Shown piece by piece: positions 7,261 through 63,649 of a stretch of 64,000 bases of DNA. The stretch's first letter is position 1, and every line of letters starts with the position of its first letter. Where the stretch lies: positions 3,694,359-3,758,358 of the forward strand of contig NC_087075.1 of NCBI RefSeq assembly GCF_026151205.1, in the 5' to 3' direction. The position numbers and the translations under genes were made by a program. The notes beneath the pieces are model-generated. The model made no database searches. It was not told where the DNA came from and saw only the letters and a list, made by a program, of their open reading frames with translations. The stretch comes from Bolinopsis microptera (Eukaryota; Ctenophora; Tentaculata; Lobata; Bolinopsidae).

Positions 7261-7323
7261 AGAAAATGATAAAAAAGAGAAACAATGCCTATCTAGTACT
7301 AACCCTGAATTACTGCGTGGAAG

Positions 7324-15605: not shown

Positions 15606-17514
15606 CTGATGAAGTGCTGGTGCTTGTAGAGAGCATAATCAATATCAATCAAGGAGCAATGAACCCGGTAAAGTGTGAGTTTGACTCGGACTCCTCCCTT
15701 GGGAGTGTTAAGTAAATTGACCCCTTACCAGAGCTAGAGGTACTTTCCATCTCATTAAGTATTTAGTATGAATTTGAAGATGATCCAAACTATTACTTGT
15801 AAACTGCACCTTCCTCGTTTTTAAACTCAAAGATAACTTATATTAAAACCTTTCAACTCTTTCAGTGTTCATGATATAATAACCTAGCAGTGTAAAGTAA
15901 ATAAACAAAGTATCCCCTCAACACTAGTGCCGCAGCTGATCCAGCTACCCCTTGAGCAGATGTAAGGCCTTTACCTCAGCTGTGATTTCACTGAGAATTT
16001 GGTGGATTCAAAAGGTCCATATAATAGGCATTTCATTTTGTTTAACAGTTCAGTATATTCATAGAGGTATTTTTGTAATTGAAAATGAGAGCCTCCTCTA
16101 GGTACATTAATTTTCCTTCCATGTAGTTACTTCTTTGATATGGAATGGGTATTGTCTTTCACTGCAGGAAATTGTAACAGTTGAAGCTCAAGACTGAAAT
16201 CACAAGTTCTTCATAACTGTTCATGATATTTTTCATATGCTTAAAAATAGGAAGCTTGACATCTGACTAAAAAATTATCTTTGTTTTGTTCTACTACAAG
16301 CACATGCTTTAAATCTGTTGGCTTATGCTTCAGATTCTTCAACATAATTCTCTTAAACTTAGGTATGCTATCCGGGCTTGCGGCTACATCAGGGGCACCA
16401 TGAAGAAGGGCATCATTTAAATTCGATATTGGACAAAGCAAAATTGCTAGTGAAATTTACGTTTTGGAAAATAAATCTGGTGGATTCGTGTAGTTTTATT
16501 GAGTCTCATGATTTGATAGTTCTTTCATTCAAATTCCTGATTTTGGAAAAGAGTCCGAATCTTTTAGCAAGGCCCTACTTACATCAATATACTCATTTAA
16601 ATAAGTTATCCTAAATTAAACATCCTTATTTTGAAAATTTTTTATTAGTAAATGAAAATAAAATAGAGCCGTTCGAAAATATTTCCCTCAGCTGTAAATA
16701 TGAAATTATGATTTATGGGCACCCAAACACGGTAAACACATAGCAAACTGTGTCCGCAATTACTTGAACCCATTACATCAAATATAATTTGAATCCAAAA
16801 TTATTTAAGACCACACAAACAAATGGCAAAGAACTGCAAATATAATTCAGATAAAATTAACAACTTTTTTATAGCCCTACTTTCCTAAATTCTTGATTCT
16901 CAATTCTCATACTAAATTCTTAATCGTATATCAGTAATAATGGCACTAAATAAACTTTAAATAGCTTTTTGAATGGCATTTTATGTTGGGTTATTTTCTG
17001 ATCTAGAATTTAAAGGCAGTAACTGGTAACAGTGCGACTACCTAGACATGTAGCCCTACTGCATTGCTACCCCGTTGCTACCTGGTGTGGCTGACTTTGT
17101 GTTGGTGTTTTAGTGATCTAACTAAACTAAAATTTGAAAATACTTTAGTCTTCTGCGGAGCAATCCACCAATGCGGTTTTTGTGGCTTAAGTTATTTAAT
17201 ATATATAGAAATATTTCTGAAAATCTCAGTATTCTCCTTACACACATCCTTCTCTTTAAAGAAGGATAGCTGCATCGGAATAGAGCTGGTTAACTTTGTA
17301 CATTTTATTGATATCCATTACCTTTTTTACCATAACTCCCTAATTAGCCTAAACCAAATAACTGTATTTTCAGCCTTTTTAATATATTGTATTTCTATAA
17401 TCGTCAAAATCTTTTTGCAGTATTTGTGTAAAAAAATATCAAATTTAGATTATCTTATATAAGAATCACTGCAAACTCATGATTGCTCATGAGATTATAA
17501 CTGCAGGCTGTAGA
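15606..17514. other. Intergenic region and importin promoter side
   Basis: AT-rich, no gene recognised. An upstream in-frame ATG at 17479 precedes the chosen importin start, but a 3' splice-site-like TAACTGCAG ends at 17506, nine bases before the chosen ATG, so an upstream untranslated exon or a trans-splice acceptor is possible. I see no clear TATA box. Confidence 0.4.
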
Positions 17515-20500
17515 ATGGACCTCAGTGAGTTAGAAAACGTTCTGGCAGGAACCCTGTCACCAGATCAGAATATCCGCAAATCCGCTGAACTGCATCTCAA
17601 GAAGGTTTGGTTTTTTCTGGTTATTTTATTTAGTGTAAATAGATTCAATATTCAATTCTATTGAGTGTTGAATAATCTTGTGGCATGATGATTGCAAACA
17701 TCAGTATTGAAGGATTAACAACAATCCCATACAGATAGAACAAGTTCCGACGTTTTGTGTGACTCTGCTGAAGTTGATGCTTACTGAGAGTGCACAGCCG
17801 CAGGCTGTTCAAGCAGGTTTGTTTAGACTATAGTTTAAAATATGTTTACATCTTCACTTTCGGTGTTTACATTATACGTAGGGGGCTGTGGTCAAGGTGA
17901 CAATCCATGAACTGTGGTTCTTTAAATAAGTCTAAACAGTTAACAAAAATGAAACTGAATTAAAAAAAACTTAACTTTTGATATTGGATACTCTTCAGCT
18001 GCGATAAACTTCAAAAATATCGTATCCAAGCACTGGAAGGTACGTGAGGACTGTTTCACTATCAGTGATGTTGATAAGAATATGATACGACAAAACTTTC
18101 TGGAATGTGTTGTCAAGTCTAATGATATGATCAGGTATGTGTTGGCTGGAAGTTTGAGTAGTCAGGAATTTTATAAATGCAATCTCGAATGTTGGTGTCG
18201 ACTGATTTTGTTTAATGAATCATTTTTGTTGTGAACTTTTTAATTCTATACTTGAGTACAATTCTATTTGACTTTCGGGACATGTTATAATCTTACAAAG
18301 CATCACGTTTCAGCTCTAAATTATTTTAGGATTGTTGGCATTTGTAAGATTGATATGTGATAATAATAATAATTGTTGTTCATCATCATTATTTATACAC
18401 GTCAAAAGCTTGTAATAACTACTAAGTATAGCACCATCTAATTTAAAACACAATATTAATAAATACCTGTGAGAGTGAAAATAAAAGAATGAAAGTGAAA
18501 GTGAAACAAAAACCAGCTGTTTTCCACAGAAAACAGTTGTGTGTATGCGCTCAGACGATTGCGCGTGAGGACTACCCGTTCAACTGGCCGGGTATCATGG
18601 ACCAGATAGTTCAGACTTTGTCTGCTGACAGTGCTGCTAGCGCGTGGCTCGCTTCGCTCCTTGTTCTTCATCAGGTCAGTTTGTATTGGTATAAGTGTGG
18701 AACAGGCTCATTTTCCCTTTTGTACAGCTTATAGCCGTTAATTATAGTTCATCTGTGAATCTTCAAAAGGGGGAGGGAGTGGGTATTAATATTAAGCTAC
18801 CCCAAAATTGATATAATTTTGTTATTTCAGATCGTTAAAAAGTACGAATACAAAAAGCTTGAAGATCGAGACGGGCTTAACAAAGCAATGACAGTCGTGT
18901 TACCAGTGTTGTTTGAAAGGTAAGAAATGGAGTACCCTCGGTTTAGGTTTACACTTGGTAAATGGTAATTAACTTAAAGGTACCTTTCATATTATATCTT
19001 AAAGAGTTAAAGGATGATTAGAAATAAAAACTATGTAGTATACAATTTGTGTGGTCAAGAAGTCAAGAGATCAGTTAAATTGACTTAAACAAATAATCAA
19101 ATTAATTTTATCTTGAGTAGTACATGTTTGGAAATCTGAGGAATATTCTGTATACATAATCGTTCTGAAGTATTTTTGTTTAAAATCCAAACTTATTTTG
19201 TATACAAGTATTTAACATTACATTGTTATGCGTGTTCGTTTGTTAACTTTTACCTCTTATTATGAACAGTATACCTTACTACATACCTACTACATACCTA
19301 CTACATACCTACATGACATACATACCACAAACCAGTTATTGGCCCTCTGATATTAACTATTTTGTGCTAAGGACTAAGATCGAGCAGTGTACATTTTCTT
19401 GCTTAGTGCTTACTCTCAAAATGTTGGAAAGGCTTCAAGAACGTCAAATATTACTGACTGTCTTAAGGTTAAATGCACTGAAAGTATCCGTTGATAACTT
19501 GAAAACACGATATGTGTTCGAGAACAGGTGTTTACATTTGTGTTTGACAAAGTTTAAATTCAGGTTGGCGCAATTACACACGGACGATTCAGAACTAAGT
19601 GTAACAAGCCAAAAAATGATACTGAAGATTATCTTCTGTCTCATCCAAGTGAGTGGCCCCACGTTTCTTTGTGAAATTTTATTCATCGGTTGAAAAATTT
19701 ACACGGTTAAAATGTAAATGCCAATTAATTACTGTCGGTAATGATGTCATTCACTGTGGATTTTAGCGTTTGTACATTTATATCTAATTTATAATTATCT
19801 AGTGTAACAGATCTAATTATTGACTGTTATGTAAGGAATTTTCGACGACATCCACCCTATTCTTTAAATTTACCGAGTTTGTACCTGATTTGAGTACAAC
19901 TCAAACACCTTAATTTAAATAGTTATCTTTGATGTAGTTAATTTTGGCGCGAACGCCGTACGCTATTTTACCGGTCCGACGTTTTCGTGACAACATTTAG
20001 CATGAAAGCATGGACCGGCCGCGCGGGCGGGCGCGCCGCGCACACCCAATTTTACGATTTGTCTGAAGCTAGGGCAGTTTACTTACTTTTACTTTCTTAT
20101 TAATATTTTAAGAAGTCTATCGATTTTATAACTTACTGACTGAACAATTCCTTTCAGTTTCGAATGCCGGCGGAGTTGTTCCCGGAACCAGTGTTTGGCA
20201 GACTGATCCAGAACTTGCAGGCTATAATGTCCAGACCTGTTCCTAAAGTAAGAAAATAATTTCCAAAACTTGGAAAACTGTCGTTAAGTTTCAATCCCTT
20301 TTTTTGGTCTATCTATTTCCAAAATCAGACCATCGTTGTTTGTGGAAATAAATATAATTCATTATACCTGTAGTTAGGCAATTACTTTATATCGACAGAA
20401 TGTCACCTAAAGTAAGTAAATAATTACATTATGTTTTGCAGGAAGTGACAGATATCCATGATAAGGATGAACTACCAAACGTAGTTTGGTGGAAACTAAA

Positions 20501-23500
20501 AAAGTGGGCGATGCACTTAATGACGAGAATATTTGAACGATACGGCAACACCACCAACATTTCCAAGGTAAATTTATCATAAGTAACACTACCAACATTT
20601 CCAAGGTAAATTTATCATAAGTAACACCACCAATATTTCCAAGGTAAATTTATCATAAGTAACACTACCAACATTTCCAAGGTAAATTTATCATAAGTAA
20701 CACCACCAACATTTCCAAGGTAAATTTATCATAAGTAACACTACTAACATTTCCAAGGTAAATTTATCATAAGTAACACTACCAACATTTCCAAGGTAAA
20801 TTTATCATAAGTAACACCACCAACATTTCCAAGGTAAATTTATCATAAGTAACACCACCAATATTTCCTCGGTAAATTTATCATAAGTAACACCACCAAC
20901 ATTTCCAAGGTAAATTTATCATAAGTAACACCACCAACATTTCCAAGGTAAATTTATCATAAGTAACACTACCAACATTTCCAAGGTAAATTTATCATAA
21001 GTAACACCACCATCATTTCCAAGGTAAATTTATCATAAGTAACACCACCAACATTTCCAAGGTAAATTTATCATAAGTAACACCACCAACATTTCCAAGG
21101 TAAATTTATCATAAGTAACACCACCAACATTTCCAAGGTAAATTTATCATAAGTAACACTACCAACATTTCCAAGGTAAATTTATCATAAGTAACACTAC
21201 CAACATTTCCAAGGTAAATTTATCATAAGTAACACTACCAACATTTCCAAGGTAAATTTATCATAAGTAACACCACCAACATTTCCAAGGTAAATTTATC
21301 ATAAGTAACACCACCAACATTTCCAAGGTAAATTTATCATAAGTAACACCACCAACGTTTCCAAGGTAAATTTATCATAAGTAACACTACCAATATTTCC
21401 AAGGTAAATTTATCATAAGTGACACCACCAACATTTCCAAGGTAAATTTATCATAAGTAACACTACCAACATTTCCAAGGTAAATTTATCATAAGTAACA
21501 CTACCAACATTTCCAAGGTAAATTTATCATAAGTAACACTACCAACATTTCCAAGGTAAATTCATCATAAGTAACACTACCAACATTTCCAAGGTAAATT
21601 TATCATAAGTAACACTACCAACATTTCCAAGGTAAATTTATCTTAAGTAACACTACCAATATTTCCAAGGTAAATTTATCATAAGTAACACCACCAACAT
21701 TTCCAAGGTAAATTTATCATAAGTAACACCACCAACATTTCCAAGGTAAATTTGTCATTAGTAACACTACCAACATTTCCAAGGTAAATTTATCATAAGT
21801 AACACCACCAACATTTCCAAGGTAAATTTATCATAAGTAACACCACCAACATTTCCAAGGTAAATTTATCATAAGTAACACCACCAACATTTCCAAGGTA
21901 AATTTATCATAAGTAACACCACCAATATTTCCAAGGTAAATTTATCATAAGTAACACCACCAACATTTCCAAGGTAAATTTATCATAAGTAACACTACCA
22001 ACATTTCCAAGGTAAATTTATCATAAGTAACACTACCAACATTTCCAAGGTAAATTTATCATAAGTAACACTACCAACATTTCCAAGGTAAATTTATCAT
22101 AAGTAACACTACCAACATTTCCAAGGTAAATTTATCATAAGTAACACTACCAACATTTCCAAGGTAAATTTATCATAAGTAACACTACCAACATTTCCAA
22201 GGTAAATTTATCATAAGTAACACTACCAACATTTCCAAGGTAAATTTATCATAAGTAACACTACTAACATTTCCAAGGTAAATTTATCATAAGTAACACC
22301 ACCAACATTTCCAAGGTAAATTTATCATAAGTAACACTACCAACATTTCCAAGGTAAATTTATCATAAGTAACACTACCAACATTTCCAAGGTAAATTTA
22401 TCATAAGTAACACCACCAACATTTCCAAGGTAAATTTATCATAAGTAACACCACCAATATTTCCTCGGTAAATTTATCATAAGTAACACTAACAACATTT
22501 CCAAGGTAAATTTATCATAAGTAACACTACCAATATTTCCAAGGTAAATTTATCATAAGTAACACCACCAACATTTCCAAGGTAAATTTATCATAAGTAA
22601 CACCACCAACATTTCCAAGGTAAATTTATCATTAGTAACACTACCAACATTTCCAAGGTAAATTTATCTTAAGTAACACCACCAACATTTCCAAGGTAAA
22701 TTTATCATAAGTAACACTACCAACATTTCCAAGGTAAATTTATCATAAGTAACACTACCAACATTTCCAAGGTAAATTTATCATAAGTAACACTACCAAC
22801 ATTTCCAAGGTAAATTTATCATAAGTAACACTACCAACATTTCCAAGGTAAATTTATCATAAGTAACACTACTAACATTTCCAAGGTAAATTTATCATAA
22901 GTAACACCACCAACATTTCCAAGGTAAATTTATCATAAGTAACACTACCAACATTTCCAAGGTAAATATATCATAAGTAACACTACCAACATTTCCAAGG
23001 TAAATTTATCATAAGTAACACCACCAACATTTCCAAGGTAAATTTATCATAAGTAACACCACCAATATTTCCTCGGTAAATTTATCATAAGTAACACTAC
23101 CAACATTTCCAAGGTAAATTTATCATAAGTAACACTACCAATATTTCCAAGGTAAATTTATCATAAGTAACACCACCAACATTTCCAAGGTAAATTTATC
23201 ATAAGTAACACCACCAACATTTCCAAGGTAAATTCATCATAAGTAACACTACCAACATTTCCAAGGTAAATTTATCATTAGTAACACTACCAACATTTCC
23301 AAGGTAAATTTATCATAAGTAACACCACCAACATTTCCAAGGTAAATTTATCATAAGTAACACCACCAACATTTCCAAGGTAAATTTATCATAAGTAACA
23401 CCACCAACATTTCCAAGGTAAATTTATCATAAGTAACACTACCAATATTTCCTCATATTGTAAAACTGTCCTAATTTGATTTAAACTATCGAGATTTAAC

Positions 23501-26500
23501 GTTTTTTAACGGTGTACGTCCAGATCATATTGATAAATTATTTGATTTTTACAGTTTCATACCTACACTAGATCTCTAACTTTGATGAGCAAACAATTTT
23601 TATGTACTGATAAGTTAAGCTGGAGCTTCCCCTCTTTAAAACGGTTACTTTATTATTTATTAACCGCAGGAATACAAGAAGTTGGGACATTTCTTTTCCT
23701 CTCAATTCGCAGTGCCAGTATTAAACACTCTCTTAGTCTCACTTGCTGAAACCAACCAGGGCAACTTTATGAGTCCCCGGGTACTCCAAGTAAGCATTTA
23801 ATTAAATAAAATTACCAGTATTAATAGGTTAATTATAAAAGTAATTAATTGGATTTGTAGTTAAATACAGGATTCGACTTGATTCGGTTTTGTAATGATT
23901 CTTAAACGGGAAAAATAACAGTTATTCTTTCAGAGAATTCTAGAATATTCTTATCCGGGTAAAATAACAGTCATTCTTTCAGAGAATCCTCGACTACCTG
24001 AAGCTTAGCGTAACAGTGTCAGTAACGTGGAAAGTTCTTAAAACCTCAATCTTGGAGGTTATTCAAAAAGTATGTAAAATCTAAGGTCTCCCTCCTTTAC
24101 TGATATTCAATTTAAATATACATGATATGTTATAACAAAATTGTTGTTTAAATTATAAGAATCAGTAAGTTTACTGATAGTCCTATGATTAATCATCAAC
24201 TTTCAGGTAGTGTTCCCTTTGCTATGTCACACTGACGAAGATGAAGAGTTATGGACAGAGGATCCGTATGAGTACATCCGTATGAAGTTCGGTTAGTTCT
24301 GCTGGAATTTCACTTTCACTTTCACTTTGAGTAGTGAGTACATCCGACAAATAGGAACTTTTCGGGATTATTCAGAATTAACAGTAAAATGAGTGAATTA
24401 GAAGCACACTGTTATTGTACTTAGACCCTTATATTTATCCTGGAATCCATTTTACTCCTCCCACCGTGTACGTAACTCAGGATTTCTTCAGATATATTTG
24501 AGGACTATGTCTCCCCCGTTACTGCTGCACTCAATTTGCTGGAGGAAGTTGTGACGAAAAGAAAGAACATGTTAAATCCACTTTTGATATGGGCAGCTCA
24601 GATCCTAGGTAAACTAGTTTAGTTTGTTATTTAGTTTGTTATTTAGTTTGTTATTTAGTTTGTTATTTAGTTTTTATTTAGTTTTTATTTAGTTTTTATT
24701 TAATGATACTCTTATCCTAGGTAAACTAGTTGTTATAGGTAGTTCCTCAACTTAAAGTTCCATGACTTCAATCTTTATCCCTATTAAAGTCTAGAATACA
24801 ATCTAGACCGTTCCTCCATTTACTTATTTACTAGTCCTCAATTGACATGGCATTTACTGTAGATGTTTAAAATATTTACCCAGGAATACCCTACCCTCCA
24901 TTTGTATTACAGTTGAAGTTTGGTGTGATATTGATAACTATTTTTACAGGAATGTTTGGTGTGATACTAATAACTGTTTTTATAGGAATGTTTGGTGTGA
25001 TATTAGTAACTATTTTTACAGGAATGTTTGGTGTGATACTAATAACTATTTTTACAGGAATGTTTGGTGTGATACTAATAACTGTTACAGGAATGTTTGG
25101 TGTGATACTAATAACTGTTTTTACAGGAATGCCCCCAGAACAATACAACCCACGTGTAAAGGACGGAGCAATGCATCTGATTGGAGCTGTAGCTGAGAAA
25201 CTCCTCAAGAAAGCAGAATACTCCTCCCAGCTAGAGCAGATGCTTCAGGCCCACGTGTACGGGGACTTCAACAGTTCCCATGGTTTCCTCCGAGCACGTG
25301 CGTGTTGGACTATCCAGCGGTTTGCTGCTGCGAAATTCAGTAACCGTGATAACCTGAAGACTGCATTTGAAGGAGTCAGAGTTTTGCTGTTGAATGATAA
25401 GGAACTTCCAGTTACGATAGAAGCTTCCTTCGCTCTGCAGTCTTTACTGCAGGTTGGATTCTGCTTTCAGTACAATGTTAAATTAATCAATACATTGTTG
25501 GCTTTTAGGTTTATTTCAGGTTTTAATACTTAATAAATAATAAGTATGATATAGATTAAAAATCCTCGTTTTTAGAAACAACCAGCAACAAAAGACCTGC
25601 TGGCACCACACGTAGGTAATGTTATACAGAAACTGTTAGTCTCTATAAAAGAGACTGAGAACGAGGATCTCACCTACGTCATGCAGGTAAGTTGGGAAAT
25701 TTTGGGACAATTAATGAGTTGTTATGTAATTGAAGGCGATAATGTCCTTACGCGGTTCAATTATTCTGACTTTAATAAGTTCAAATAAGTTTTTTGAGGA
25801 TAGACCTAACCAGGTTAGACCTAACCAGAATAGATCTAACCTCCTAACGAGGTTTTAACAGCAAAAGTTTCAATTCTCACATATTTAACGATAGAGTAAT
25901 GGATAATATGTCTTTTCGCTATGAACTGTTTTCTTTTTAAACTCTACTAAACGTAAGTATAGTCTGATTTTAAGTTTAATTTTGCCAATATTGTGATCAG
26001 CATATTTCAGGAATTAATAGAGAAGTACAGTGAGGATATACATACTGTAGCTGTTCCCTTGGTTACAGAACTCGTCAAAACATTCCAGGTTTAGATCAAT
26101 AGAACTTATAATGTTTGCCTGGAATGAAAATGCGTGTACGTTATGTTACTATGAGAAAGTAGCACTTTCCCGTCATTCTAATGTTTTGTATTCATCAAAT
26201 TAATCATTAACCTTCTTTAATTAACCGAAATAACAAACTGATAACTTAAATTAAACTTCAGGCAATGTTGGAGGAACTGGCGGAAGCAGAAGACGAAGAT
26301 AACAGCAGCTACAAAACCATGACAGCTATGGGAATACTTAACACGATACAGAATCTACTTTCTGCTGTCTCCCAGAACAAGAAGATCATGCCGAAAATTG
26401 AGAACATTCTCGCAGGTTTGTGGAGCTTTAACGGGTGATGAATAAAAAATGGGACTACATGTTTTAAATTCCTCAGCTTCCACCTGAACAAAATTTTGAT

Positions 26501-29500
26501 ATTTTACCACAACCACCAGTTACTCTGAACGATACTCGAACAGTTTCCGCCCCCATTTGATCAAATTGGTTGATCTTTGTCCCCGATAATGGTCTCGAAC
26601 TAGGGGAGGGGTCCTATAAACATTTTACAGTAAAGCACTGTTCACAGAAGTCGCCTCACAGGTAGTTAAAGCTTCCATACCAACAAATTTTTAGCAGAGA
26701 GTATGCCTAAACTTCCTATCTATCACATCCTAAAGCGATTTTAGCAGCAGAGGTCGGTAGCCAGAGCTACAGAGACAAAAAGGCCATCCTGTATTATAGC
26801 ACTTACGAAAATGACCCAATAGGAACTGCTGGTGAGCCACATAACCGGCACCCTACCGAGATCCCTGGTGATCCGTTTTGGCTGTACTCTCGGTTATATT
26901 TCCAGGGCAGTCACATGACTAAATGTTTGTTGTCTGAAAGGTGTCAAAGCCCCTAAGATTAGAGATAACACCCAAAAATGGGAAGTCGTGAGCAAATTCG
27001 AAAATATGTATAATCTTGACTAAACGCTATATTTTGCTATTGTTGAGAAGAAGTATTTCGGTCTGACTGTTGTCCATACGTCAAGAAGTAGGGAATTGTA
27101 TGCTTAAGACTAGGGTTTAACACCCATCAGCGTAGCTAAAACCAGTTAGAAGATATTTGAGCTCAAAACTACCTGAGGGGTAAAATTTTACCGTGTGAAA
27201 GATCGAGGCTAGGTCAAACTATCGGCTTTAGCATGGTCTATAATGGTACCACGTAAAAATCAAAGTGCTTGGAGCCTTGCCTGGTGTTGTTCCTACAAGA
27301 AAATATCCCCAAAGGGTGGAAGGTGGTTCGTTAGGATGGGGCTAGATCGTATTTTTCTGCGAAAACCACATCTTTACTTGCAGCCCATAGGGTTAATTTC
27401 GTCCCAAAAGTGATCGACCAAAGTAAATTTTGACAATCTCAACCCATAGAGAACTTCTTTAGAGTCCTGGCAACACATGTCCATGCCCGGAATATGGCTA
27501 GCAAGCATACATGGGCCTTAGGGCACAAAAGAAGAGACTGCGCCAACACGATTTTAGGCCCAACTGTACAGACGGATTTTTGAGTTTGAAGAAAGAAGCC
27601 CTCCTGAACCAATCAAAATGGGCTCATGGGCGCTTGTCATTGAACATACTTGTTCAAAATTGCCCGCTTTACAACGCTGTTTCATTGGTTTGAACCAAAA
27701 ATAGTTTTATCGACACTAAAAAGACCCTTGAAAAAAGTCCCATTTTTTAGTAATCACCCGTTAATCGTGGCTCTTCTATTTGCTTATTTTAGTACTTAAT
27801 TAATTTTAGAGCGAATATTGACGTATATCTATAGGTTTATACTTCTGTACTTCTATAGTGGTGACTGGTGTATGTAGCAGTATCGGTACTCTATTTCAGA
27901 GCTAATATCTACTATAAATTATAGAGCCAATATCTACCTACTATTTATTTCAGAGCTAATATCGACAGTACTAAAAGGTGGAATAGTCGACTATTACGAG
28001 GAGATATTTCAGATGATCCAGATCTTGACAGCTCTTCGTGTAACATCTGTGATGTGGAACGTGCTCTTCCAAATGTTAGTCAACTTAGTAAATTAATCAC
28101 TTAGTAAATTAATCACTTTGTAAATTAATCACTTAGTAAATTAATCACTTAGTAAATTAATCACTTAGTAATTAATCACTTAGTAAATTAATCACTTAGT
28201 AATTAAGCACTTAGTAATTCATCACTTAGTAATTAATCACTTAGTAATTAATCACTTAGTAATTAATCACTTAGTAATTAATCACTTAGTAATTAGTCAC
28301 TTAGTAATTAATCACTTAGTAATTAATCACTTAGTAATTAATCACTTAGTAATTAATCACTTAGTAATTAATCACTTAGTAATTAATCAATTAGTAATTA
28401 ATCACTTAGTAATTAATCACTTAGTAATTTGTAGCTTTATAACTTAGTATGATGATTATTTATATATATAGTAATTACAGCTTGTTCGGGGTTTCTACCA
28501 ATTTCTTATAAAAAAGTAAATTTTTATAGAATAGATTTATTAGTTTTCACTATTAAACAAAGTAAGACAGCATATTTTAAACAAACTAATTGGTAAATGA
28601 TAAATTTCACATTAGTCAATGTAATTAAAATTCCAAGTCCCTCTATGGAAATAATTATTTAATTTCAAAACTGTTTAAAAATATTCAACTCGACTCCTTC
28701 TAATATAACAAACTGCAAATCGAAAAATTCGAATGTAAGAAAATTAACAGAGTTTATACGGAATATTAACGGTACGATTTCGAAATATAAAAACCGCTAG
28801 CAAAAGATCATTCTATAATCTATTAGTGATTCAGATTGTCTATTAGTATTACTGATTGAGGTTTTGTGTTAGTACGGCAAAATTAACCACAAACCATATT
28901 TTAAATTCAGGTGAATTAGGTATGTAACGTAACAGCAATAGCAGCAAATCTGGGGAAACTTTGAAATACACCAATTTGAAGCATTTAACCCCCCCTTAAA
29001 AATCAAAGATTATGAATTTTAGTAATCTGATTATTTACATAGGTCCAAAAATGTCATAGCTTCATGATAGTGCAACGAAAAAAATCTCAGAACATTTTGG
29101 TGCTGAGTTAGGTGGTTAAGTAGTCGAAAAATGACTGATTTGTTAGTGGACATTTTTTATACCTCTAACACCCAAACCCTTACTACAGTGAAGATATAAG
29201 TACTACAGTTAATATTGATGGTCATTATTGAACAAAAATGGTTCATTGACACATAGTTGAAGAAGGAAATTAAAAAAATTAATAAATGTGGTCTGTGGAG
29301 TGGTTTATTTGTTTATGTTATAGTGTACGCGTGCGCGCGCTAGCGCGTACTTAACCATCTGTAGGCCAACATATTTAGTCTAGGCTTAAATTCTTTATAT
29401 ATTATGTCACCACTATGGTGCCCAATACTTTTAGTGAAGGTTTGATGTAGAACAGTTAACCACCAACTGTGGTATATCAAAAAAACCATGTTTGTACGCG

Positions 29501-32500
29501 TGCGCGCGCGCTAGCGCGTACTTAACCACCTGGTATGGCACAGCATTGAAATATCACCATAATTTCAAAAGCAGAGGTCACCATTCAGGTGCCCAAAACT
29601 TTTGACTATGGTCCCAATACCATAAAACCTTAGATGTGGCCTCAATGTGGTTAAAACATGTTTATTTTGGACTTTCGGTCAACAGAAGCCATCACAAATT
29701 AACCATTATTCAGCAACCTCCGAACTTTTTGTGCCTTATTTTGTTTTGATATTTGATTATGAGAGATAGCTGGAGGATAATAAGTGATTTTAAAGATAAT
29801 GCAACAAAATGTGTGGCCGTATGGTGGTTAAAACGACCAAAAACACTGATTTTGGTCAATTTTAGACCTTTATTAACCATGATGGACGCAACATAGGACT
29901 CAGCAATGTTTCTGGTCATATAAATGAGCAGGTAGTTATATCTAGATAATGTAGCATGGCCAGCTATAGCTTTACAAAGCTAATATGTGCTCTAAAAATG
30001 GTTAATTAGTGCAAATATAGGGTATTTTCGAGACATTTTAACCACCATAGCTGCACATTGATCATAATGCATGAACTTGGGGTCAATTATGCATTTGCAA
30101 ACAATTATACACTCATTTGGATAGCAAACCATTATCTGAAGTTCATATTGTGGTTAATTTTCACTTTAATAGATGCCTTGTTCAACAGCCTAGCAAGTAA
30201 TATAGCCCTTTTAACCACTTTTATGACAACATTTCTTGATAAATTTTATCAAGACCCTTCAAATGTCCTTTGTTGACCATAAAATGTTGACTAAAATCAT
30301 TAATAATGTTTTGATTGGTGGTTAACAATAAATTTTGACATTTTAACCATCTTTTTAGTACTTTTTACGAATATTAACCACCTCAAATCAACCATACTAT
30401 TAAATTGCACATTTGTGATAAAAAATTATCATCCATGCACAAATGAACAACCAAAATATACATCTATAATCAGAGCAATATTTATAGCTCACCGTTCATC
30501 TTCAATTTAACCACCATTAGGACCACAAAATGCCCCCAATGAGGTTTGAAAACTTTTGTGATAGTTGCACCATGATATGATCTCAATATAATGACTACTC
30601 AGTTCATAATATCATATCTCAAAATGGTGGTTAACCCTAAAACTGGTATTTTAACCACCATAGTGGCCACATAGATGACCCATTAACCACAATTATTCAA
30701 CATGACCGTACTGCAGTGTTTTGTGCGCCAGAAAAACATCACTCCAACATTGAGATTAACCACAATGAGCTGCAACATAATGTTGAAGTCAACATACTCA
30801 AATTGTGTGAAAAAAGTCAATGTCCACCAAGTTTCCCCAGATTTGCTGCTATTGCTGGTAACTTTTATTTAAAATTAACCAATATAAGTTAAACGCAATA
30901 ATAAGTTCATGTTCGAAGTAAATTAGGTTCATATAGTTCCTCAATCGTTATCTATGAGCTGATCGTACTTTTCGTCTATCTGTGTCTCGTTTGTTCGGCC
31001 CTCTTATCGCATCCTGGAATAATTATCATTCTAACTGTTTGAAATTAAATTAAATATATCAACTAACAACATTTATCACACAGATGCTAAAGTTAGGAAC
31101 AAGTAACAAATTTCAAAAATTTGCGAGCAAAAACAATAGTGTACCTGCGAAGTGTTTCCAGTGTTAGTTTGAATAGTTCGCACACCGGTCTTCACCGTCG
31201 TTGATCTGATCGAGGAAGCGTATCATTACCTCCGTCATTCTGATCCCTTCGGAAAATTCTGAAATATTTTTTACAATGATTATTCAGGACAAGATGAAAA
31301 GTTCAATTACAACTTTTAAAGCTCTTACATAGAAATTAATGAAATAATGGACTATCAATCAATGATATAATTTATCTTGAGATAAATAATAATGATATTA
31401 TTATAGAAACAAATTACCAAGGTTTTGCATGCTCTTGCGCAGAACTTCTAGTTTTTTGCCGGTAATCACTGCTTCAAAGAACGTTTCCGACTCTAGCATA
31501 TCCCAGTGATTAGTTATGGTGGTATTCAGGAGACAATTCATGGTAGCGTTGGCAGACTCTCCCAGCAGACCTTTGACATGTTCGAGCTGTACTTGAGTTT
31601 TGTTGAGAGTTCTGGTGGTGCTGTTCAGTTCTTTTGTCGTAGTTTCCAATTCCTTGGTCGTAGTGTTTAATTCCTCAGCCACCGTGTCCAGTTCTTCTAT
31701 TTTCATCTGTTGTTGAGTCTCCGAGACGTTCAGTTGCTGGGTTTTGTTCTCCAAATCGGCTCGGAAAGTTTCTTTTTCTTCCTTTGTCTGATCAAGCTCC
31801 CTCGTTGTTTCGTTAAGTTGTTGCTCTTTGTTCTCCAGGTCAGCAAGTGTGTCGTTAAGCTTCTCTTCTGTCTGTTGAAGTTTTCCCTGCATCGTTTCCA
31901 AGGAATCTAGCAGCCCGCTGATGGCGCCTGCACTACTACACCCACTTTCAATCTCCGTTACAGTTCCAGTCCTTGTTTTTAGGAGAACGTCGTCCCACTT
32001 AATGGCTCTAACCTCACCGTAGAGTTCCTCAACTACAGAGCACATGTCACTTGCCATCTCCTTGATCTCTTCGTCACTCAACTTCTTACTGAACATATTG
32101 AGCTTAAAAATTTCGCCGTTCAAGATATTAACATTATCCATTCCTGTACCCGGCCCTGCTTGCTCGTTACCCAGCACGAGGTACCCTCCTAGTTTCAGAG
32201 TTCTCCCTGCAGGTGTTGCCTTGCTGTCAACTAGTGCACCATTAATGTATACGGTCCTTGTTTGGCTGGTTGCGTCCCAACCTAGACAGTTATGGAACCA
32301 CGTGCCGGGGGTTACGGTATATAGGTTTTTTAGCTCAGCTTGGTCCCCGAATATGGCGGTGCGAGAACCCATATCTGTTATCTGTATCTCGTTGGGTACT
32401 CCACTCACAGCGTATGAGAACCAGGTAGGTGCACGTGCACTTCCCAGTTTTCTTATCCACGAACAAACTGTAAACCCGGTCTCAAATGGCTGCATTTCAG

Positions 32501-35500
32501 GCTGATAAACGATGTAATCGTTTTGTGTTGGACCAAATTTCAGGGCATTAAAACGGTCCCCTCTAGTAGCCAGCAGAAGGAGAGAGAACAGTGTCAGAAG
32601 TAGAAGCTCTTTCATCTTGGTATTTATCTTAGCTAATAGAAACGTGATTACATTCAATTACTTGGTAGGTGTATAGTTTGATATGAATTGTTAAGTTTTG
32701 AAATATAATAATTTCATGAATTGCTGCTCACAAAATGGTTTAACTATTTTAAATCTGAGCGGATTATTTTTCAAATAAGAAGAAGATTGGAAGTTATGTT
32801 AGACCTAAATTAGCATCAAGGAGATTTGCGAACATACGTGCTCATTGTAAAAATCTTGAACGATTGTTACAGGTTATTGTCAGATATTTCTAAAATTATA
32901 TGCGCTGTAAGAACTGAGAAACAGTTTGACTGTATGGGAAAACCTTTGGTTGGGCTTGTCAGAGCAGCTGACTGTACATTATGTGGAAAAATAAGTATCT
33001 TACTGGGATCATTATGACCAAAAAGTAAAAAATGTCGTATACAGATACTCAAACTTGGTGATAAAAATGAAAATAAAAGATCGAGATAAAATTTGAAAAT
33101 GTTAATAGTGCTTAAATCATTACGATCAATTATAATAGAAAATAATAATAAGATAATACAGATATCTGTTAGATTGTTTTATTAATTATAATTTATACAT
33201 ATATTAACTAAGTAACGATAAAAAGTTAAAAAGTCGGTAGTAACAAAATATGAAATTGAATTTGAAGGATAGCAAGAACAGCTAGATCAAGAAAAAAGTG
33301 AAAACAATGTTGAGCAGCCCGACCCAGTCCGCAGACTAGTCCGTAAAATAATTTCCAAGCTATCAATAAATCTATCATGATATTCCCGAGCAAAGTTTAC
33401 CACTAAGCACGTGTAAATCATACATTTTAAACCACACCAAGCAAAGGAATGCACACATTTTTTATATGAAGTGTGAAAAAGTAAAAGGTTATATTTTCAT
33501 GTTATCATAATTATAGACGCTCTGATTGATAACATCAATTAGCTATACGGAAGTGTTGAACAAAAATATATTCCATGATACAAATAAAACAATAAGTTGG
33601 GTTCGTAACCCAACATGCTCCTTACAGAGCACTTCACGAGGGCTCCTGAAAATCAGGAGGGCTCCTGAAAATCTACAAGACAAGAAGATCAGGAGCTGTT
33701 GATAACAACAGATAAGAATCTCCTGATACCTTGTCAGCTTTATACCACTTCGCATCTATCACGTGGTTCTCCGAGCAGGACCCACCTTGTTCAATCATTG
33801 GAATGTTGGTTGAGATTGTTAAGATTCCTGTCTGTCTGTTCTCCAAACTCTGTGAGATATCACCATGGTATTTCTAATAGAACCCTGCTCATGTTTAATA
33901 TTCACAGAGCAGTATAAACGTGACACATAGATACTGATATTGTTTTAGTCTGTGTTTTGAAATCATATTGAAATTGTGCTGCTGTTTTATGTCACGTGAT
34001 GGAATTATCTGGATCTGGTGATCGACTGACTTAACGATATGACATTCCTTTCATTTTAACCCCAAAATTTTACCAAATATGGTGAATTTTTAGAACTACC
34101 CACCTGATGATAAGGTATACCGTCTGCAAAATACTTAGAAATTTTTACTCAGTACTAATTTTGGACGAGAATAGAATTCATCTCCACAAATCTATCAGTG
34201 ATTTGACGGCTGGATTTTATGTCATCGATCTGTTGTTCACAAATCAGGTACAGGAAAATATTTTCAACATTACTCAGTCGTCCCAAGATATTACCTCAAC
34301 CAAGTCACAGCTCTACAAACTAACATCTTACTGTCAGTTTACAGTTGCAGTTTATCACGATTACTGTATCAAACCATGAAATGTATGACAACTGGACGTA
34401 TCTTACTATATATAAAGCGAGACGATAGTTTTAATACTTTCAACACTACTATATAACAAATAATTTGAGAATTGATGTAAATAAATGATGCAAAGACTTT
34501 CGACGATCTAATCACAACCGCTTTCTTTTATTGTGTAGAAGTCCAGCCATGAAATATATATATATATATATCTGTGCCATTTTACTGACACCACGGCATC
34601 AACTTTAACGCGACTTTCCGCATAAACCGTAAAAGATATACAACTGGAACTTTTTTGGCTGGGTCAAATGCTTTAATGGCCTTCAAATCAGCATGAAAAA
34701 ATAAAAAATTGGCCAAGGAATAATGATTTTAGAGCCGAAAATTTGGACCCCCAAGTGGTGTCAAAAACGCCAATTAAATAGGTAATAATTATTTTAGTAT
34801 TTTGAGTCTTGACACCGTTTAGGGTTATATTATACGGGTTCCTGCTAGTATTTATAAACGACTGGTCACTCGACGTTCACTACTGGTCACTAACACGTGA
34901 AAATGAGATTCACCCAAGAATCATCGTCATTTATCAGAATAGACCTCGATGTTTGACATTTGGTAATTGGTTAGCGAAGAAGACGAGCATTGTATATTTC
35001 GTTTCACCACTATTTACCACAAATAAATTCCGAAAAATTGGACCGTACAAACGGATTGTGAAAATGGACAAATCGGCGATAATTCCCCCCCCCCCCCCCC
35101 CGGCCCCTCAACATGCAACCATCTCAAGTTATAGTGAAAGTGAAACAGTCTCTCCTCAGGTACAAGTTATAGTGAAAGTGAAACAGTATATCTCCTCAGG
35201 TACAAGTTATAGTGAAAGTGAAACAGTCTCTCCTCAGGTACAAGTTATAGTGAAAGTGAAACAGTATATCTCCTCAGGTACGAAGCGTTTAAAAACGACG
35301 GTCACGACTACTTTCCAGACATGATGGGAGCTCTACATAACTACGCAACTGTAGACTCCTCCAAATTTTTATCAAACCCTCAATATATTGGTAATTACCG
35401 ATCAATTAGTCGATTATCAATAATTTGTGACGTTTTATTCGGGATTGAATACCAATAATATTTTGGTTGTACCGGGAAAATAAATTGCTCAATATCTGGA

Positions 35501-38500
35501 TTCTTAATGAATATTAATCTTATATGGTTCAAACTTCAAGCAATTATACATCAATTCAGTACTTTTTAATCGATAAAATTCGTGTCCCTACCATGATTAT
35601 CATATGTCATTCTAAAGAGTTTTAAGAAATTATCTTTACAGAGATAATGTACAATATTTCTAAAACGGTACTGAAGAAACAAGAGAGTGAAGATCCACAG
35701 TACAATGCATTGAAGTTGGTGGAGGTTATCATTGTTAACCACAGGTAAGTTAGCCTTAGAATAAGGTTATAATTGTTAACCACAGGTAAGTTAGCCTTAA
35801 AATGAGGTTATCATTGTTAACCACAGGTAAGTTAACCTTAGAATGATGTTATCATTGTTAACCACAGGTAAGTTAACCTTAAAATGAGGTCATCATTGTT
35901 ATTCAAAAAATGGAACCTTATTCTTTGTCGCATTTCTCCCAGGAGGTGACCGGGATTCCCGGTACCGGGAATCCCGGTACCGGGATTGGCAATTTTGAGC
36001 TATCCCGGTCCCGGTCCCGGTCCCGGTCCCGGTCCCGGTAAACCGGGTCAAGTCACATTTTTCATCCCGGTCGCGGTCCCGGTCCCGGTCAAATGCTGAT
36101 TTATGATCCCGGTCCCGGTCCCGGTCCCGGTTAATTCAGGATTCTTGGTCCTGGTCCCGGTCCTGGTCCCGGTCAATCACTCAAATTTGCCGGAATTTTG
36201 ACCGGGATCTTTTACATAATTTCATTCACTGTGATTTTAAGTTTTTACTTTCATTCATTGTGAATTTCATCTTTAAACAACCTCTGAGCCAAATAAAACA
36301 ATGTTTAAAATTGCTAAACAAGTTTAGGTAACTAATATCGTTACATAACTCATAAGTGCAAACTAACATCAAGTTTTCAACTCGGGCTACGCCCAATTGT
36401 CAATTGGAATTGGAGAATGAAACTGTTGAATAATTTGAGGGATCATTGATTGAGGAATGAGGAATGATGGTGAACTTGAGTAATCAGTACATGAACATTA
36501 TTGGTGTAGTACATTAGGCCCATGCCCCATATTGACGGGTTTTTTCTAGTTTTTTCTAATTTAATATTCTAGTTATTACTTATTCAAATTGTTCAATTAT
36601 AATGTAAATGAAAGTTGCAGCTTTCAATATGAGAATACCAGTTTTGGTCCCGGTCATCCCGGTCATCCCGGTCATCCCGGTCAAATCCCGGTCATCCCGG
36701 TCATCCCGGTAAAATTGGATTGTTGGTCCCGGTCCCGGTCCCGGTCCCGGTAAGATAGAAATCACAGAAATTATTGATCCCGGTCCCGGTCCCGGTCACG
36801 GTAAATTGATAATCTCAGTCCCGGTCCCGGTCCCGGTCCCGGTCAAGTCACATTTTGTATCCCGGTCCCGGTCCCGGTCCCGGTCAGGCCTAAAATCATG
36901 TCCCGGTCACCTCCTGATTTCTCCTCACTTAACCGATAAAGGATCATTTAATTAACATAACAAACTATAAAATGTTGCTTATACTGCTCACTGCTCAGAG
37001 GTAAGATATTCAATGTAAATGAATATTAATTAACAAACTAATAAATCCCACCCCCAGAGGCAAGATAGACCACATGCTACACATGTTCATGTCCCTAGCG
37101 CTGGATAAGCTCGCTCAATCAGTCCAGACACAGGAACTTCGTGCCATGGCACTTCTCGTCGTAGTTGCAGGTAAATAGTCAGGTGATGTGCCTGGAGGGG
37201 GATTGGTGACGTCATGTTACGTGGTGTGACGTCATGTTACGTGGTGTGACGTCATGTTACGTGGTGTGACGTCATGTTACGTAACATGGCACTTCTCGTC
37301 GTAGTTGCAGGTAAATAGTCACGTGATGTGCCTGGAGGGGGATTTGTTTTAAAACATATAAGAGATACGAAAAGTTAGTTTTAGCAGGAGCTTTCAAAAT
37401 ACATGTGTAAATCTTCAGCTGATGTGATGTGGGATATAGCCACTCAGCTTACTGTAAAACGGTTCAACACAGGGGTCAACACAGGGGTCAACACAATTTC
37501 GGCTGGGACCGGTTGAGTCCTGTTTTAGGACTCAAATTTGTTATGACACGTGTCATCACGTGTCATAACAAATTTGTATTCACTGGCCCACTCAGTCACT
37601 CTCTATCATTACCTACGTCTATAACCAGATGATTACAATAACTGTTATAGTACTAGTAGATGCGATGACTGAGAAGTTTTTTAAGCTTTAAGTGAAATAT
37701 GATGCGATGATATTTTGTTCTGTCAGCCTATTTTTATGTTCATCCTCCCATAATTACTAGTTCTAATTACCAGCTGTATAATTATTTAGAGTTGTGACAC
37801 AGTCCTTTCAGCTATCTGGTATAACCCGTTACTAGCAATGCACCTGCTGGACAAGTACAAACTACCTAACAGTTCCGAGTCCGTGGTGGAACAGTTCTTT
37901 AACCAGCTTTTCAGTGATGCTGAGGTCTTCATTGGGATACACGACAAGAAGGTGAGTAACAGGAGCAGTGGCGTAACGTTACGCCACTGTAACAGAGTGA
38001 TTACGTAACATTATGTGTCGTAGTTACGACGCCATTTCACGTAATTTCGGGTAATACATAATATGAGTATGACGTCACACCAAGTGACATGACGTCACAC
38101 TTCGTAACATTGTTTTGTTTTATTGTTTTAAAGACCCGAGGGCCACCCTTAAGGGCTTTGAAACCGGTTTATTGACAATGTAATATATAAATAAACTGAA
38201 ATCGTAACATTCATGTCAATACTAACTGAAATAATATAATCTGTAGTTAAAATAATAATACTTACCAAGTGACATGACGTCACATCACGTAACATAACGT
38301 CACAAATCCCCCAGGTAGCAGTACTGGGACTGTGTGAGCTGATAATGCACCCCTCAGCTCCTAAACCATTCGACCATTTAGCGGACAAGCTGATACCGTA
38401 CTTCATAACACTACTCAAGAACCTGAGGGTGGCGTATCAGTTGCGGAGGGAGGAGGAGAATGAGGAGAGTGAGGGGGAGGAGGGGGAGGAGGCAGGAGAG

Positions 38501-39108
38501 GGGGATGAGGAGTTGGAATCAGAAGATGATGAGTGGGATGACGAGGGCACAGAGTATCTTACAAAACTAGAGGAGTTCGTTCCTGGAGACATGTCAGGTA
38601 TTTGAAACATTCCTTCACTGTGTTTCTGTCATTAGAGAAGTATACTCGTATTAGTTTAAAATTCTTGCCGCATTAGTTATTATAAATGTATTAAGAGAAG
38701 GGAAGAAGATGTATTCATTAATAGGTGTGAAGTAAGAATCTTAAATAATAAATAGGTATAAAGAAAATAATAAATATATTTATTAATTAATTATTAAGTA
38801 AGTTTCCCCCCTTTGCAGGAATGTTTGACTTGGAGCACCTGGAATGTTTCGACACAATCCTAGACGACGAGGAAACATCACCATGTGAGTTCACCACATT
38901 CAAGAGATTGTTGGAATTCCTCATGCAGAACGAGGGCGGGCATGAAGTTCTCATGAAGTGTGTGGATGATGATCTTAAGAAGGATATGGAGAGTTTAATT
39001 CAGTATGCGGATAGGGAAACTGATCGGAAACGAAGTGAGATGATCGAAAATCAGGGAGGCTATAATTTTGAGAACTCGTTCGAGGTCCCTTCTACGTTTA
39101 ACTTTTAG
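17515..39108 (+). CDS. IPO7: Importin-7/8 nuclear import receptor, 23 exons
   Basis: Importin-beta family karyopherin that carries ribosomal proteins, histones and SMADs/ERK into the nucleus (family knowledge). Coding exons: 17515-17604, 17735-17816, 17999-18134, 18530-18674, 18831-18919, 19564-19648, 20158-20247, 20442-20567, 23670-23789, 23983-24069, 24207-24291, 24492-24608, 25127-25452, 25576-25686, 26011-26088, 26262-26415, 27954-28074, 35278-35390, 35642-35744, 37058-37170, 37812-37951, 38315-38597, 38819-39108. All junctions are GT-AG, phases agree, and lengths sum to 3084 bases, 1,027 residues; vertebrate IPO7 is about 1,038. Diagnostic words: [91 protein letters not shown], the acidic run near residue 915, and the C-terminus [10 protein letters not shown]...STFNF. 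Many introns carry duplicated splice sites. Confidence 0.96.
20243..20425 (+). repeat. Duplicated 5' splice site in intron 7
   Basis: The exon 7 end and donor, CCTAAA followed by GTAAGAAAATAATT, recur at 20406-20425 as CCTAAAGTAAGTAAATAATT, 164 bases downstream and 17 bases before exon 8. The downstream copy is the closer match to a consensus donor. Confidence 0.6.
20547..23453 (+). repeat. 38-bp minisatellite of ~76 splice-donor copies
   Basis: The unit is AACACTACCAACATTTCCAAG plus GTAAATTTATCATAAGT, spaced exactly 38 bases (donors at 20568, 20606 and on). The first unit begins inside exon 8 of the importin gene: its 21 exon bases encode NTTNISK and its GTAAAT is the true donor. Nearly every unit keeps AAGGTAAATTTATC; variants are mostly C/T in TACC/CACC, and a few CTCGGTAAAT. 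Since 38 is not a multiple of three and each unit has in-frame stops, donors beyond the first would truncate the protein. Confidence 0.95.
23908..23988 (+). repeat. Duplicated 3' splice site in intron 9
   Basis: The stretch GGGTAAAATAACAGTCATTC TTTCAG plus exon start AGAATC (ending 23988) is preceded 49 bases earlier by GGGAAAAATAACAGTTATTC TTTCAG plus AGAATTC. The decoy AG is at 23932-23933, the true one at 23981-23982. Confidence 0.7.
24600..24733 (+). repeat. Duplicated 5' splice site in intron 12
   Basis: The exon 12 end and donor ATCCTAG plus GTAAACTAGTT recurs 112 bases downstream (donor 24721). Between them lies a TTTAGTTTGTTA / TTTAGTTTTTA tandem stretch. Confidence 0.7.
24913..25130 (+). 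repeat. 36-bp array of 3' splice sites before exon 13
   Basis: Six units of about 36 bases (GAATGTTTGGTGTGATACTA ATAACTGTTTTTACAG), each ending in an acceptor: AG at 24949, 24985, 25021, 25057, 25090 (30-base unit) and the true acceptor at 25126. The reading frame of exon 13 stays open through the whole array, encoding repeats of [12 protein letters not shown]. One unit has TATAG rather than TACAG. Confidence 0.9.
26432..27760. mobile_element. 1.33-kb non-autonomous DNA transposon, TTAA target
   Basis: Lies in importin intron 16. The ends are CGGGTGATGAATAAAAAATG and, inverted, CGGGTGATTACTAAAAAATG (about 22 of 25 bases matching), and each end is flanked by TTAA (26428-26431 and 27761-27764). 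A TTAA target duplication is the mark of piggyBac-type and a few other superfamilies; the CGGG start is not classical piggyBac, so the superfamily is open. No transposase frame is present inside. Confidence 0.7.
27891..27960 (+). repeat. Triplicated 3' splice site before exon 17
   Basis: TATTTCAGAGCTAATATCTAC (decoy AG 27899) is followed by ATTATAGAGCCAATATCTAC (AG 27924) and the true TATTTCAG plus AGCTAATATCGAC (AG 27953). The three copies are 25 and 29 bases apart. Confidence 0.6.
28083..28430 (+). repeat. 16-bp minisatellite at the start of intron 17
   Basis: About 22 units of TTAGTAATTAATCAC (early ones TTAGTAAATTAATCAC), beginning eight bases after the exon 17 donor GTTAGT, which itself resembles the unit's CTTAGT. 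The array is perfect over long stretches, so recent. Confidence 0.85.
28933..30857. mobile_element. 1.9-kb DNA transposon with repeated TTAACCA motif
   Basis: Lies in importin intron 17. The left end is CAGCAATAGCAGCAAATCTG GGGAAACTT; the right end is its exact inverse over about 29 bases. Both ends are flanked by GTAA (28929-28932, 30858-30861), a likely 4-bp target duplication. Inside, TTAACCA or TGGTTAA occurs about twenty times in both orientations at irregular 30-130 base gaps. Two copies of a CG-rich hairpin (GTACGCGTGCGCGCG...CGCGTAC) lie near 29325 and 29493. No transposase is encoded. Superfamily not assigned. Confidence 0.7.
31164..32615 (-). CDS. Secreted jellyroll-lectin/coiled-coil protein nested in intron 17
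   Basis: Two exons on the opposite strand inside the importin intron: 32615-31418 and 31258-31164, joined by a GT-AG intron in phase 1, giving 430 residues. The start is the ATG at 32615, whose product begins with a signal peptide ([19 protein letters not shown]). Residues 20-205 form a pentraxin/laminin-G-type jellyroll: [67 protein letters not shown]. Residues 240-370 form a Glu/Leu/Thr-rich coiled coil with many N-glycosylation sequons (NDT, NET, NKT, NTT, NST). The C-terminal exon encodes [20 protein letters not shown]. Likely an extracellular carbohydrate- or matrix-binding protein that oligomerises; the exact function is unknown. Without splicing the first exon would end six residues on (GNLFL). 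Confidence 0.85.
34431..34469 (+). repeat. 39-bp word shared with 44195-44233
   Basis: The words starting TTAATACTTTCAACACTACT and ending AATAATTTGAG are identical over 39 bases in the two places, one in importin intron 17 and one in the last intron of the Pam17-like gene. Flanks differ. Probably pieces of an unrecognised dispersed element. Confidence 0.6.
35122..35281 (+). repeat. Array of four 3' splice sites before exon 18
   Basis: Units GTACAAGTTATAGTGAAAGT GAAACAGT(CTC or ATATC)TCCTCAG of 38-40 bases, with AG at 35159, 35199, 35237 and the true acceptor 35277. Each AG is followed by GTAC as in exon 18, so exon and intron bases are repeated together. The alternating 40/38 lengths break the frame. 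Confidence 0.8.
35722..35890 (+). repeat. Four-copy 5' splice-site array, intron 19
   Basis: The exon 19 end GGTTATCATTGTTAACCACAG and its donor GTAAGTTA recur at exactly 41-base spacing (donors 35745, 35786, 35827, 35868). The true donor is the first. All four are perfect GTAAGT donors. Confidence 0.9.
35940..36916. mobile_element. 977-bp hAT-like element with CCCGGT hexamer blocks
   Basis: Ends are CAGGAGGTGACCGGGA and its inverse TCCCGGTCACCTCCTG, bounded by a perfect 8-bp duplication ATTTCTCC (35932-35939, 36917-36924), as for hAT transposons. Inside both ends are runs of (CCCGGT)n of three to six units, alternating with AT-rich spacers; near 36655 the repeat becomes CATCCCGGT. The AT-rich middle matches the copy at 63042-63649 in the other orientation. 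No transposase. It lies in importin intron 19. Confidence 0.85.
37145..37345 (+). repeat. Duplicated 5' splice site and CRE-like repeats, intron 20
   Basis: The exon 20 end with donor (CATGGCACTTCTCGTCGTAG TTGCAG plus GTAAATAGTCA) and the following CGTGATGTGCCTGGAGGGGG recur 140 bases downstream (donors 37171 and 37311). Between the copies a 20-bp unit containing TGACGTCATGTTACGTGGTG is repeated four times (37207, 37227, 37247, 37267). Confidence 0.85.
37966..37989. repeat. Perfect 24-bp palindrome next to donor
   Basis: CAGTGGCGTAAC followed by GTTACGCCACTG, perfectly self-complementary and starting 14 bases after the exon 21 donor at 37952. It could form a hairpin or cruciform; function unknown. 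Confidence 0.8.
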
Positions 39109-63041: not shown

Positions 63042-63649
63042 CAGGAAGTGACCGGGACATGATTTCAGGCCTGACCGGGACCGGGACCGGGATACAGAAT
63101 GTGACTTGACCGGGACCGCGACTGAGATTATCAATTTACCGGGACCGGGACCGGGACCAATAATTTCTATCTTACCGGGACCGGGACCGGGACCAACAAT
63201 CCAATTTTACCGGGATGACCGGGATGACCGGGACCAAAACTGGTATTCTCATATTGAAAGCTGCAACTTTCATTTACATTATAATTGAACAATTTGAATA
63301 AGTAATAACTAGAATATCAAATTAGAAAAAAACTAGAAAAAACCCGTCAATATGGGGCATGGGCCTAATGTACTACACCAATAATGTTCATGTACTGATT
63401 ACTCAAGTTCACCCTCATGGTCATAATTTATTACTCAAACTTGTTTAGCAATTTTAAACATTGTTTTATTTGGCTCAGAGGTTGTTTAAAGATGAAATTC
63501 ACAATGAATGAAAGTAAAAACTTAAAATCACAGTGAATGAAATTATGTAAAAGATCCCGGTCAAAATCCCGGCAAATTTGAGTGATTGACCGGGACCGGG
63601 ACCAAGAATCCTGAATTAACCCGGGACCTGGAATCCCGGTCACTTCCTG
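63042..63649. mobile_element. 608-bp hAT-like element with ACCGGG blocks, copy 2
   Basis: Ends CAGGAAGTGACCGGGA and inverse TCCCGGTCACTTCCTG, flanked by CTTTTTCC (63034-63041) and CTTTTTTCC (from 63650), an 8-bp duplication with one extra T. Inverted relative to the copy at 35940, with which it shares the AT-rich middle (for example AATATGGGGCATGGGCCTAA); it is shorter by an internal deletion of about 100 bases and has shorter hexamer runs. Confidence 0.8.

Follow-up and report, generated by a model that had tools for sequence, protein, structure and literature searches.

Tandem duplications across exon/intron boundaries of an importin-7 gene in the ctenophore Bolinopsis microptera

The importin-7 locus and its duplicated junctions

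The window considered here is the whole stretch of 64,000 nucleotides that was analysed, positions 3694359-3758358 of contig C4 in a 264.65-Mb, 232-contig assembly of Bolinopsis microptera (Ctenophora, Lobata). Its plus strand carries an importin-7 gene (17479..39108) with 23 exons and 22 introns. Our exon model starts at 17515, and the ATG of the public protein lies at 17479. The model (17515-39108) encodes 1027 amino acids without a frameshift and is 100% identical to the public protein P0001, 'importin-7-like [Bolinopsis microptera]', the sole difference being 12 extra residues at the start of the latter. Hence the annotation and the model share all 22 introns. The product has an importin-beta N-terminal domain (Pfam IBN_N), and among solved structures Xenopus importin 7 is the nearest to it in sequence (825 bits). 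A second copy of the gene was not found with a 401-base query around exon 13. The importin N-terminal domain gave two equal-scoring matches, one on contig C44 (L001) and one at 6.70 Mb of C4 (L002), possibly reflecting a leftover haplotig.

Several other elements are present in the window. A single-exon gene of the pentraxin/laminin-G-like type (31401-32657, minus strand; Pfam Pentaxin, 2e-16) is nested, on the opposite strand, in importin-7 intron 17. Its product has a coiled-coil-like tail, and inspection by eye alone suggests a signal peptide. Long reading frames of a LINE-type retrotransposon, in which reverse transcriptase and RNase H can be recognized by eye, occupy 3673-8598 on the minus strand. 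Arrays rich in TCCCGG lie at 35949-36910, within importin-7 intron 19, and on the opposite strand at 63079-63233, near the end of the window; they probably belong to one dispersed element family. The other multi-exon gene of the window (39708-44456) is a Pam17-like mitochondrial import gene whose first exon (39708-42776) contains dozens of copies of a 48-bp coding repeat (EISAAATEEVVADAAE).

Each importin-7 intron, together with 60 nt of exon on either side, was compared with itself, unguided by any earlier list. A junction was called duplicated if a repeat crossed it by at least 4 nt on both sides and an image of the junction lay inside the intron. Nine of the 44 junctions behave in this way: the 5' splice sites of introns 7, 8, 12, 19 and 20, and the 3' splice sites of introns 9, 12, 16 and 17. 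This is exactly the set named in an initial annotation of this DNA, and the copy numbers that we measured span the same range as given there, from 2 to about 76. The list is unchanged at minimum scores of 13, 14 and 16, while at 18 intron 7 is lost. Dinucleotide shuffles of the importin-7 intron interiors, in which 8 bases at the start and 20 at the end of each intron were preserved, gave no junction duplication in 60 trials.

The upper end of the range is found in intron 8 (20547..23454; this and the following features are all on the plus strand). Here a 38-bp unit, made of 21 exon and 17 intron nucleotides, is repeated about 76 times, and each copy carries a 5' splice site. The 76 copies fall into 17 distinct unit types and differ from one another by point changes. 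At the 5' junction of intron 19 (35722..35901) there are four copies of 41 bp that include 20-23 exon nt. Intron 20 (37145..37344) has two copies of its 5' junction (26 exon and 34 intron nt) 140 nt apart, and the 5' end of intron 12 (24602..24731) has two copies of 7 exon and 11 intron nt, 112 nt apart. In both of these a short-period array separates the two junction copies, with a 20-bp period in intron 20 (37206-37282) and a 12-bp period in intron 12 (24618-24702). In intron 7 (20242..20425) the 5' junction, represented by 6 exon and 14 intron nt, recurs once, 164 nt downstream (20406-20425). This duplication was recovered as claimed, but it amounts to a 20-nt match with one mismatch and, with a score of 17, is the weakest of the nine. 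The two copies in intron 7, at the 5' end of intron 12 and in intron 20 are not arranged head to tail.

As for the 3' junctions, that of intron 12 (24918..25131) is present in six copies at 36-nt steps (one step is 33), in each of which a polypyrimidine tract is followed by AG and 5 exon nt. Intron 17 (35125..35281) has four copies of 38-40 bp, forming a 78-bp pair, with 4 exon nt. Two copies lie 49 nt apart in intron 9 (23898..23987; 36 intron and 5 exon nt). The two clear copies in intron 16 (27892..27963; 8 intron and 10 exon nt) are 54 nt apart, and a decayed third copy can be read between them by eye. The duplicated blocks had been described as straddling the junctions. All nine do so, but the exon part is merely 4-5 nt long in the 3' splice-site copies of introns 9, 12 and 17.

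Of the array units, those of introns 8 and 17 were searched, and both match strongly at the importin-7 locus only. Four weak matches to the intron 8 unit occur elsewhere, at 73-75% identity. Dispersed arrays on contigs C3, C12 and C13 (loci L030-L033) were considered as a source of the intron 8 unit and rejected; the resemblance, about 21 bits per period, was judged to be due to chance. A separate 15-bp array of about 23 copies (28083-28429) begins close to the 5' splice site of intron 17, 9 nt after the final base of the exon, and leaves out the exon.

Repeats and junctions within and beyond importin-7

The 22 introns of importin-7 contain 22 local repeat families, nine of which are junctional. 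If every family is positioned randomly inside its own intron, 2.09 of the 22 are expected at junctions (P = 1.4e-6 with an exon overlap of at most 30 nt; with 60 nt allowed, 2.26 are expected and P = 3.1e-6). Because the gene was noticed for this very pattern, these P values are optimistic. The excess is also weaker by another measure, since 5.5 of 44 junctions would be duplicated if they were struck as often as interior intron positions are crossed by repeats, as against the nine seen. Repeat families number 1.2 per kb of intron in importin-7 (22 in 18.5 kb); in a 200-kb sample of chromosome C1, the figure for 80 introns is 0.40 per kb. Arrays elsewhere in the importin-7 introns had been described as few, which is not the case: 13 of the 22 families are non-junctional, most of them with short units. 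Among the families with an aligned unit of at least 30 nt, six of seven are junctional.

Our sample outside importin-7 comprised the 200 kb of C1 and smaller pieces elsewhere. It is not random, because loci were fetched for resemblance to the arrays (L030-L033) or for helicase matches (L034-L036, L041 and L042). For gene prediction we trained a simple finder on the genes of the window; depending on settings, it recovers in its own training region 23-26 of 27 known exons with 26-36 predicted. When retrained on its own output it drifted to 'genes' made of transposons and repeats, and the later counts come from the window-trained model. At the main setting it predicted 24 genes with at least four exons on C1. 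Seven C1 predicted proteins, taken whole or in part, were compared with Pfam; all seven have a match at an E value of 0.001 or better, and six at the curated cut-off. In total there were 131 introns outside importin-7 (80 from C1, 42 and 9), that is 262 junctions. Sixteen of the 42 come from the stretch to the left of importin-7, where the gene models are mostly doubtful.

Five junctions were flagged in these 131 introns and two of them were accepted. In one (L033) a 53-nt exact match crosses a 3' splice site at a distance of 68 nt, in a predicted gene without a Pfam match. The other (L042) belongs to a DEAD-box helicase (PF00270, 1.4e-34), where an array with a 29-bp unit carries the exon end and the 5' splice site; 16 of its inner copies were flagged. 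Two flags were not accepted by eye: one, to the left of the window, is a coding microsatellite with a 9-bp unit, and the other lies in L035 (score 16). The single flag on C1 at the main setting sits in a false gene (126799-141142). Another scan of C1 gave two flags in 52 introns, judged by eye to be simple or coding repeats. A laxer one flagged 22 junctions, spread over 13 of 132 introns; 12 of those 13 introns are part of the same array misread as a gene at 126799-141142, and the remaining one is the undecided case at 79696-82942 of the sample that is described below. None of the eight junctions of the Pam17-like gene is duplicated. Counting accepted junctions, importin-7 has 9 of 44 and the rest of the sample 2 of 260 (Fisher P = 6e-7; the intron of the false C1 gene is omitted).

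The same random placement was applied to the families outside importin-7. For this purpose the false C1 gene was dropped together with four families and one intron (leaving 24 of 28 families), and L035 was retained as flagged. On C1, none of the 24 families is junctional, with 0.97 expected; in 13 other loci (35 introns) three of 14 are flagged, with 1.63 expected. Overall, 38 families in 114 introns gave three flagged as junctional, two of them accepted, versus an expectation of 2.60. Outside importin-7, then, junctions are struck about as often as random placement predicts.

These numbers bear on the suggestion, made in the initial annotation, of a process that prefers junctions. Such a preference could operate throughout the ctenophore genome, for instance by transcription-linked breaks or by slippage at exposed splice-site DNA, with importin-7 as a strong case. 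Within importin-7, a gene picked for showing the pattern, the suggestion finds support, with nine of 22 families at junctions where 2.1 are expected (P = 1.4e-6). A genome-wide preference is not established, because the 38 families outside the gene do not depart from expectation in this way. The repeat-versus-junction comparison that had been proposed for all genes was run on a small sample, where it reveals no general preference; a genome-wide scan for splice-like motifs, with a thin control, leans in the opposite direction.

In that scan, three perfect copies of CAGGTAAGT at steps of 29-59 nt gave 447 matches genome-wide (154 + 293), and the reversed motif gave none. Single copies number 2462, versus 1212 for the reversed motif. 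An average 9-mer of the same composition, scaled from a sample without importin-7, would give about 2.8 loci and 24 matches genome-wide, an expectation that is raised because the scaled sample includes loci chosen for their arrays. Among the triple matches listed, about 100 places correspond to about 10 loci, one of which is importin-7 intron 19; one array alone supplies several dozen triple matches. The counts point to an excess of 5' splice-site motifs in arrays and would speak for a preference for junctions, the control being thin (one reversed motif) and the arrays being shown to lie at a junction in intron 19 alone.

Arrays on C1 with periods of 15-100 point in both directions. Acceptor-like sites are found in 9 of 86 arrays versus 5.6 for shuffled units at a low threshold, and in 4 versus 1.1 at a high one. 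Donor-like sites are without excess (4 of 86 versus 8, and 1 versus 1.5, respectively). In the stretch that contains importin-7, donor-like sites occur in 10 of 48 arrays versus 5.7 after shuffling, a necessary outcome there. There is also a possible further case at C1:10079696-10082942 (79696-82942 of the sample), where an 81-bp two-copy repeat has a donor-like site at a predicted junction. It has coding scores of 2 and 0 and was not accepted. Taking all this together, we regard junction preference throughout the genome as rather unlikely. If it did hold, junction arrays would be found genome-wide in ctenophores, and many genes would have several to dozens of equal, full-strength sites with only the exon-adjacent one being read; we are doubtful about this too. 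As a separate observation, an array at C8:7268823-7269127 has a 37-bp unit that reads as a 3' splice site running straight on into a 5' splice site (TTATTTCAGGTAAGT), as if an exon of zero length had been repeated.

Choice among the splice-site copies

In P0001, the one annotated protein, the exon-proximal copy is spliced at all 22 introns. All 90 detected inner copies (81 donors and 9 acceptors) retain GT or AG. In 75 of the 81 inner donors the score equals or exceeds that of the real donor, and every one of the 81 would give a premature stop if used. The same is true for all four upstream acceptors of introns 9 and 17. The five upstream acceptors of intron 12 are all in frame and open, and would insert repeats of 11 or 12 residues; the single upstream acceptor of intron 16 is likewise in frame and open. 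P0001 has no insert from the upstream acceptors of intron 12.

Since the inner donors are strong and would truncate the product, and yet only the outer ones are reflected in P0001, the choice must rest on more than the sequence of the site itself. Judging from sequence, exon definition may explain it, or the advantage of the site that is transcribed first. Intron 8, with approximately 76 nearly identical 5' splice sites one after another, is a natural experiment in which sequence cannot decide the choice, and it would separate a first-come choice from exon definition.

Selection might instead maintain the copies, which would serve as decoys or alternative sites in the tuning of splicing or would give rise to variable inserts, above all the in-frame repeats of about 12 residues from intron 12. 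The full strength of most inner sites would suit such a role, as would the 36- or 33-nt spacing in intron 12 with its five open acceptors and the open upstream acceptor of intron 16. In the intron 8 array GT is intact in 75 of 75 inner copies, but it is only part of the 24 of 38 unit positions that are invariant, and there are 17 unit types in the 76 copies; the independent changes are too few to decide whether GT is under selection. The inner donors, all of which lead to premature stops, as do the four extra acceptors in introns 9 and 17, argue against decoys, and so does a public protein without the insert. The proposal of selection for decoy sites, which also came from the initial annotation, hence fares badly, and we think it very unlikely.

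Likeness to mirages and other boundary duplications

The closest parallel that we found is with the 'mirages' of amphioxus, which in the available text of the reports concern Adh3, the globins BflGb6 and BflGb9, PGBD5 and troponin C (PMC3087553, PMC3902484). Mirages are described there as tandem duplications that resemble minisatellites and extend over an exon/intron boundary at either the 5' or the 3' end. Many of their copies contain AG/GT, and mirages are reported not to disturb splicing (PMC3087553, PMC3902484). Haplotype length variation and somatic instability are reported as well. As far as these partial texts describe it, the anatomy in importin-7 is the same. Tandem units span the exon/intron boundary at 9 of 44 junctions, and the splice signals exist in many copies, being kept in 90 of 90 detected inner copies. 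The differences are the phylum, the involvement of nine junctions of a single gene, and the copy number, about 76 in intron 8 as compared to the 3 and 6 units given for two haplotypes of BflGb6. To our knowledge, junction repeats under the name 'mirage' are known only from lancelets. A report of junction repeats in ctenophores was not found in our searches of the open-licence literature. As far as these reach, what is new is that such repeats occur in this phylum, that they affect nine junctions of the same gene and that they attain this copy number.

We consider it probable that importin-7 has undergone mirage-type tandem duplications which are tolerated, and which are extreme in this gene. 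Tandem duplications, produced by ordinary slippage or unequal exchange, would have happened to span existing exon/intron boundaries, and several of them would then have expanded as minisatellites. The exon next to the outermost copy remains intact, which would be why they are tolerated. Exon definition, or use of the site transcribed first, would give a normal mRNA, and the inner copies would leave with the intron. One observation counts against this reading: random placement does not explain the clustering in importin-7 (9 versus 2.1). A locally raised duplication rate may be how the gene exceeds what its own repeat content predicts. If correct, mirages extend from lancelets to an early-branching animal phylum. 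Since a chromosome-scale genome exists, it can be settled directly there whether junctions are preferred.

We know of other duplications at exon/intron boundaries. Internal tandem repeats in human segmental duplications have a mean unit of about 30 bp, and some are located at exon-intron boundaries (available text of PMC2812944). According to the same source these can form novel introns and alternative transcripts, whereas the annotated importin-7 transcript is without such a change. ATP2A1 and a potato RdRp variant, the latter with its 3' intron end and exon start duplicated, likewise involve tandem duplication of splice signals (available text of PMC4974935). Unlike in these cases, importin-7 gains no intron; its copies lie inside existing introns, at the same end.

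The latter point also bears on intron gain by tandem duplication of exon segments bearing AGGT (the Rogers model). AGGT is present in five of the nine duplicated junctions, but it is present in 19 of all 44 as well (15 of 22 donors and 4 of 22 acceptors). The copies sit at one end of an intron rather than one at each end. Since the duplicated blocks contain intron sequence and their copies belong to one end, the introns pre-dated the duplications. The AGGT-centred duplication offered in the initial annotation thus loses its footing, and we find it highly improbable.

An assembly artefact might be imagined, the available text of PMC10232365 describing a wtdbg long-read assembly with gap closing (if it is the same assembly), but this is scarcely credible given that the copies carry point differences, that nine different units are involved and that other loci are alike.
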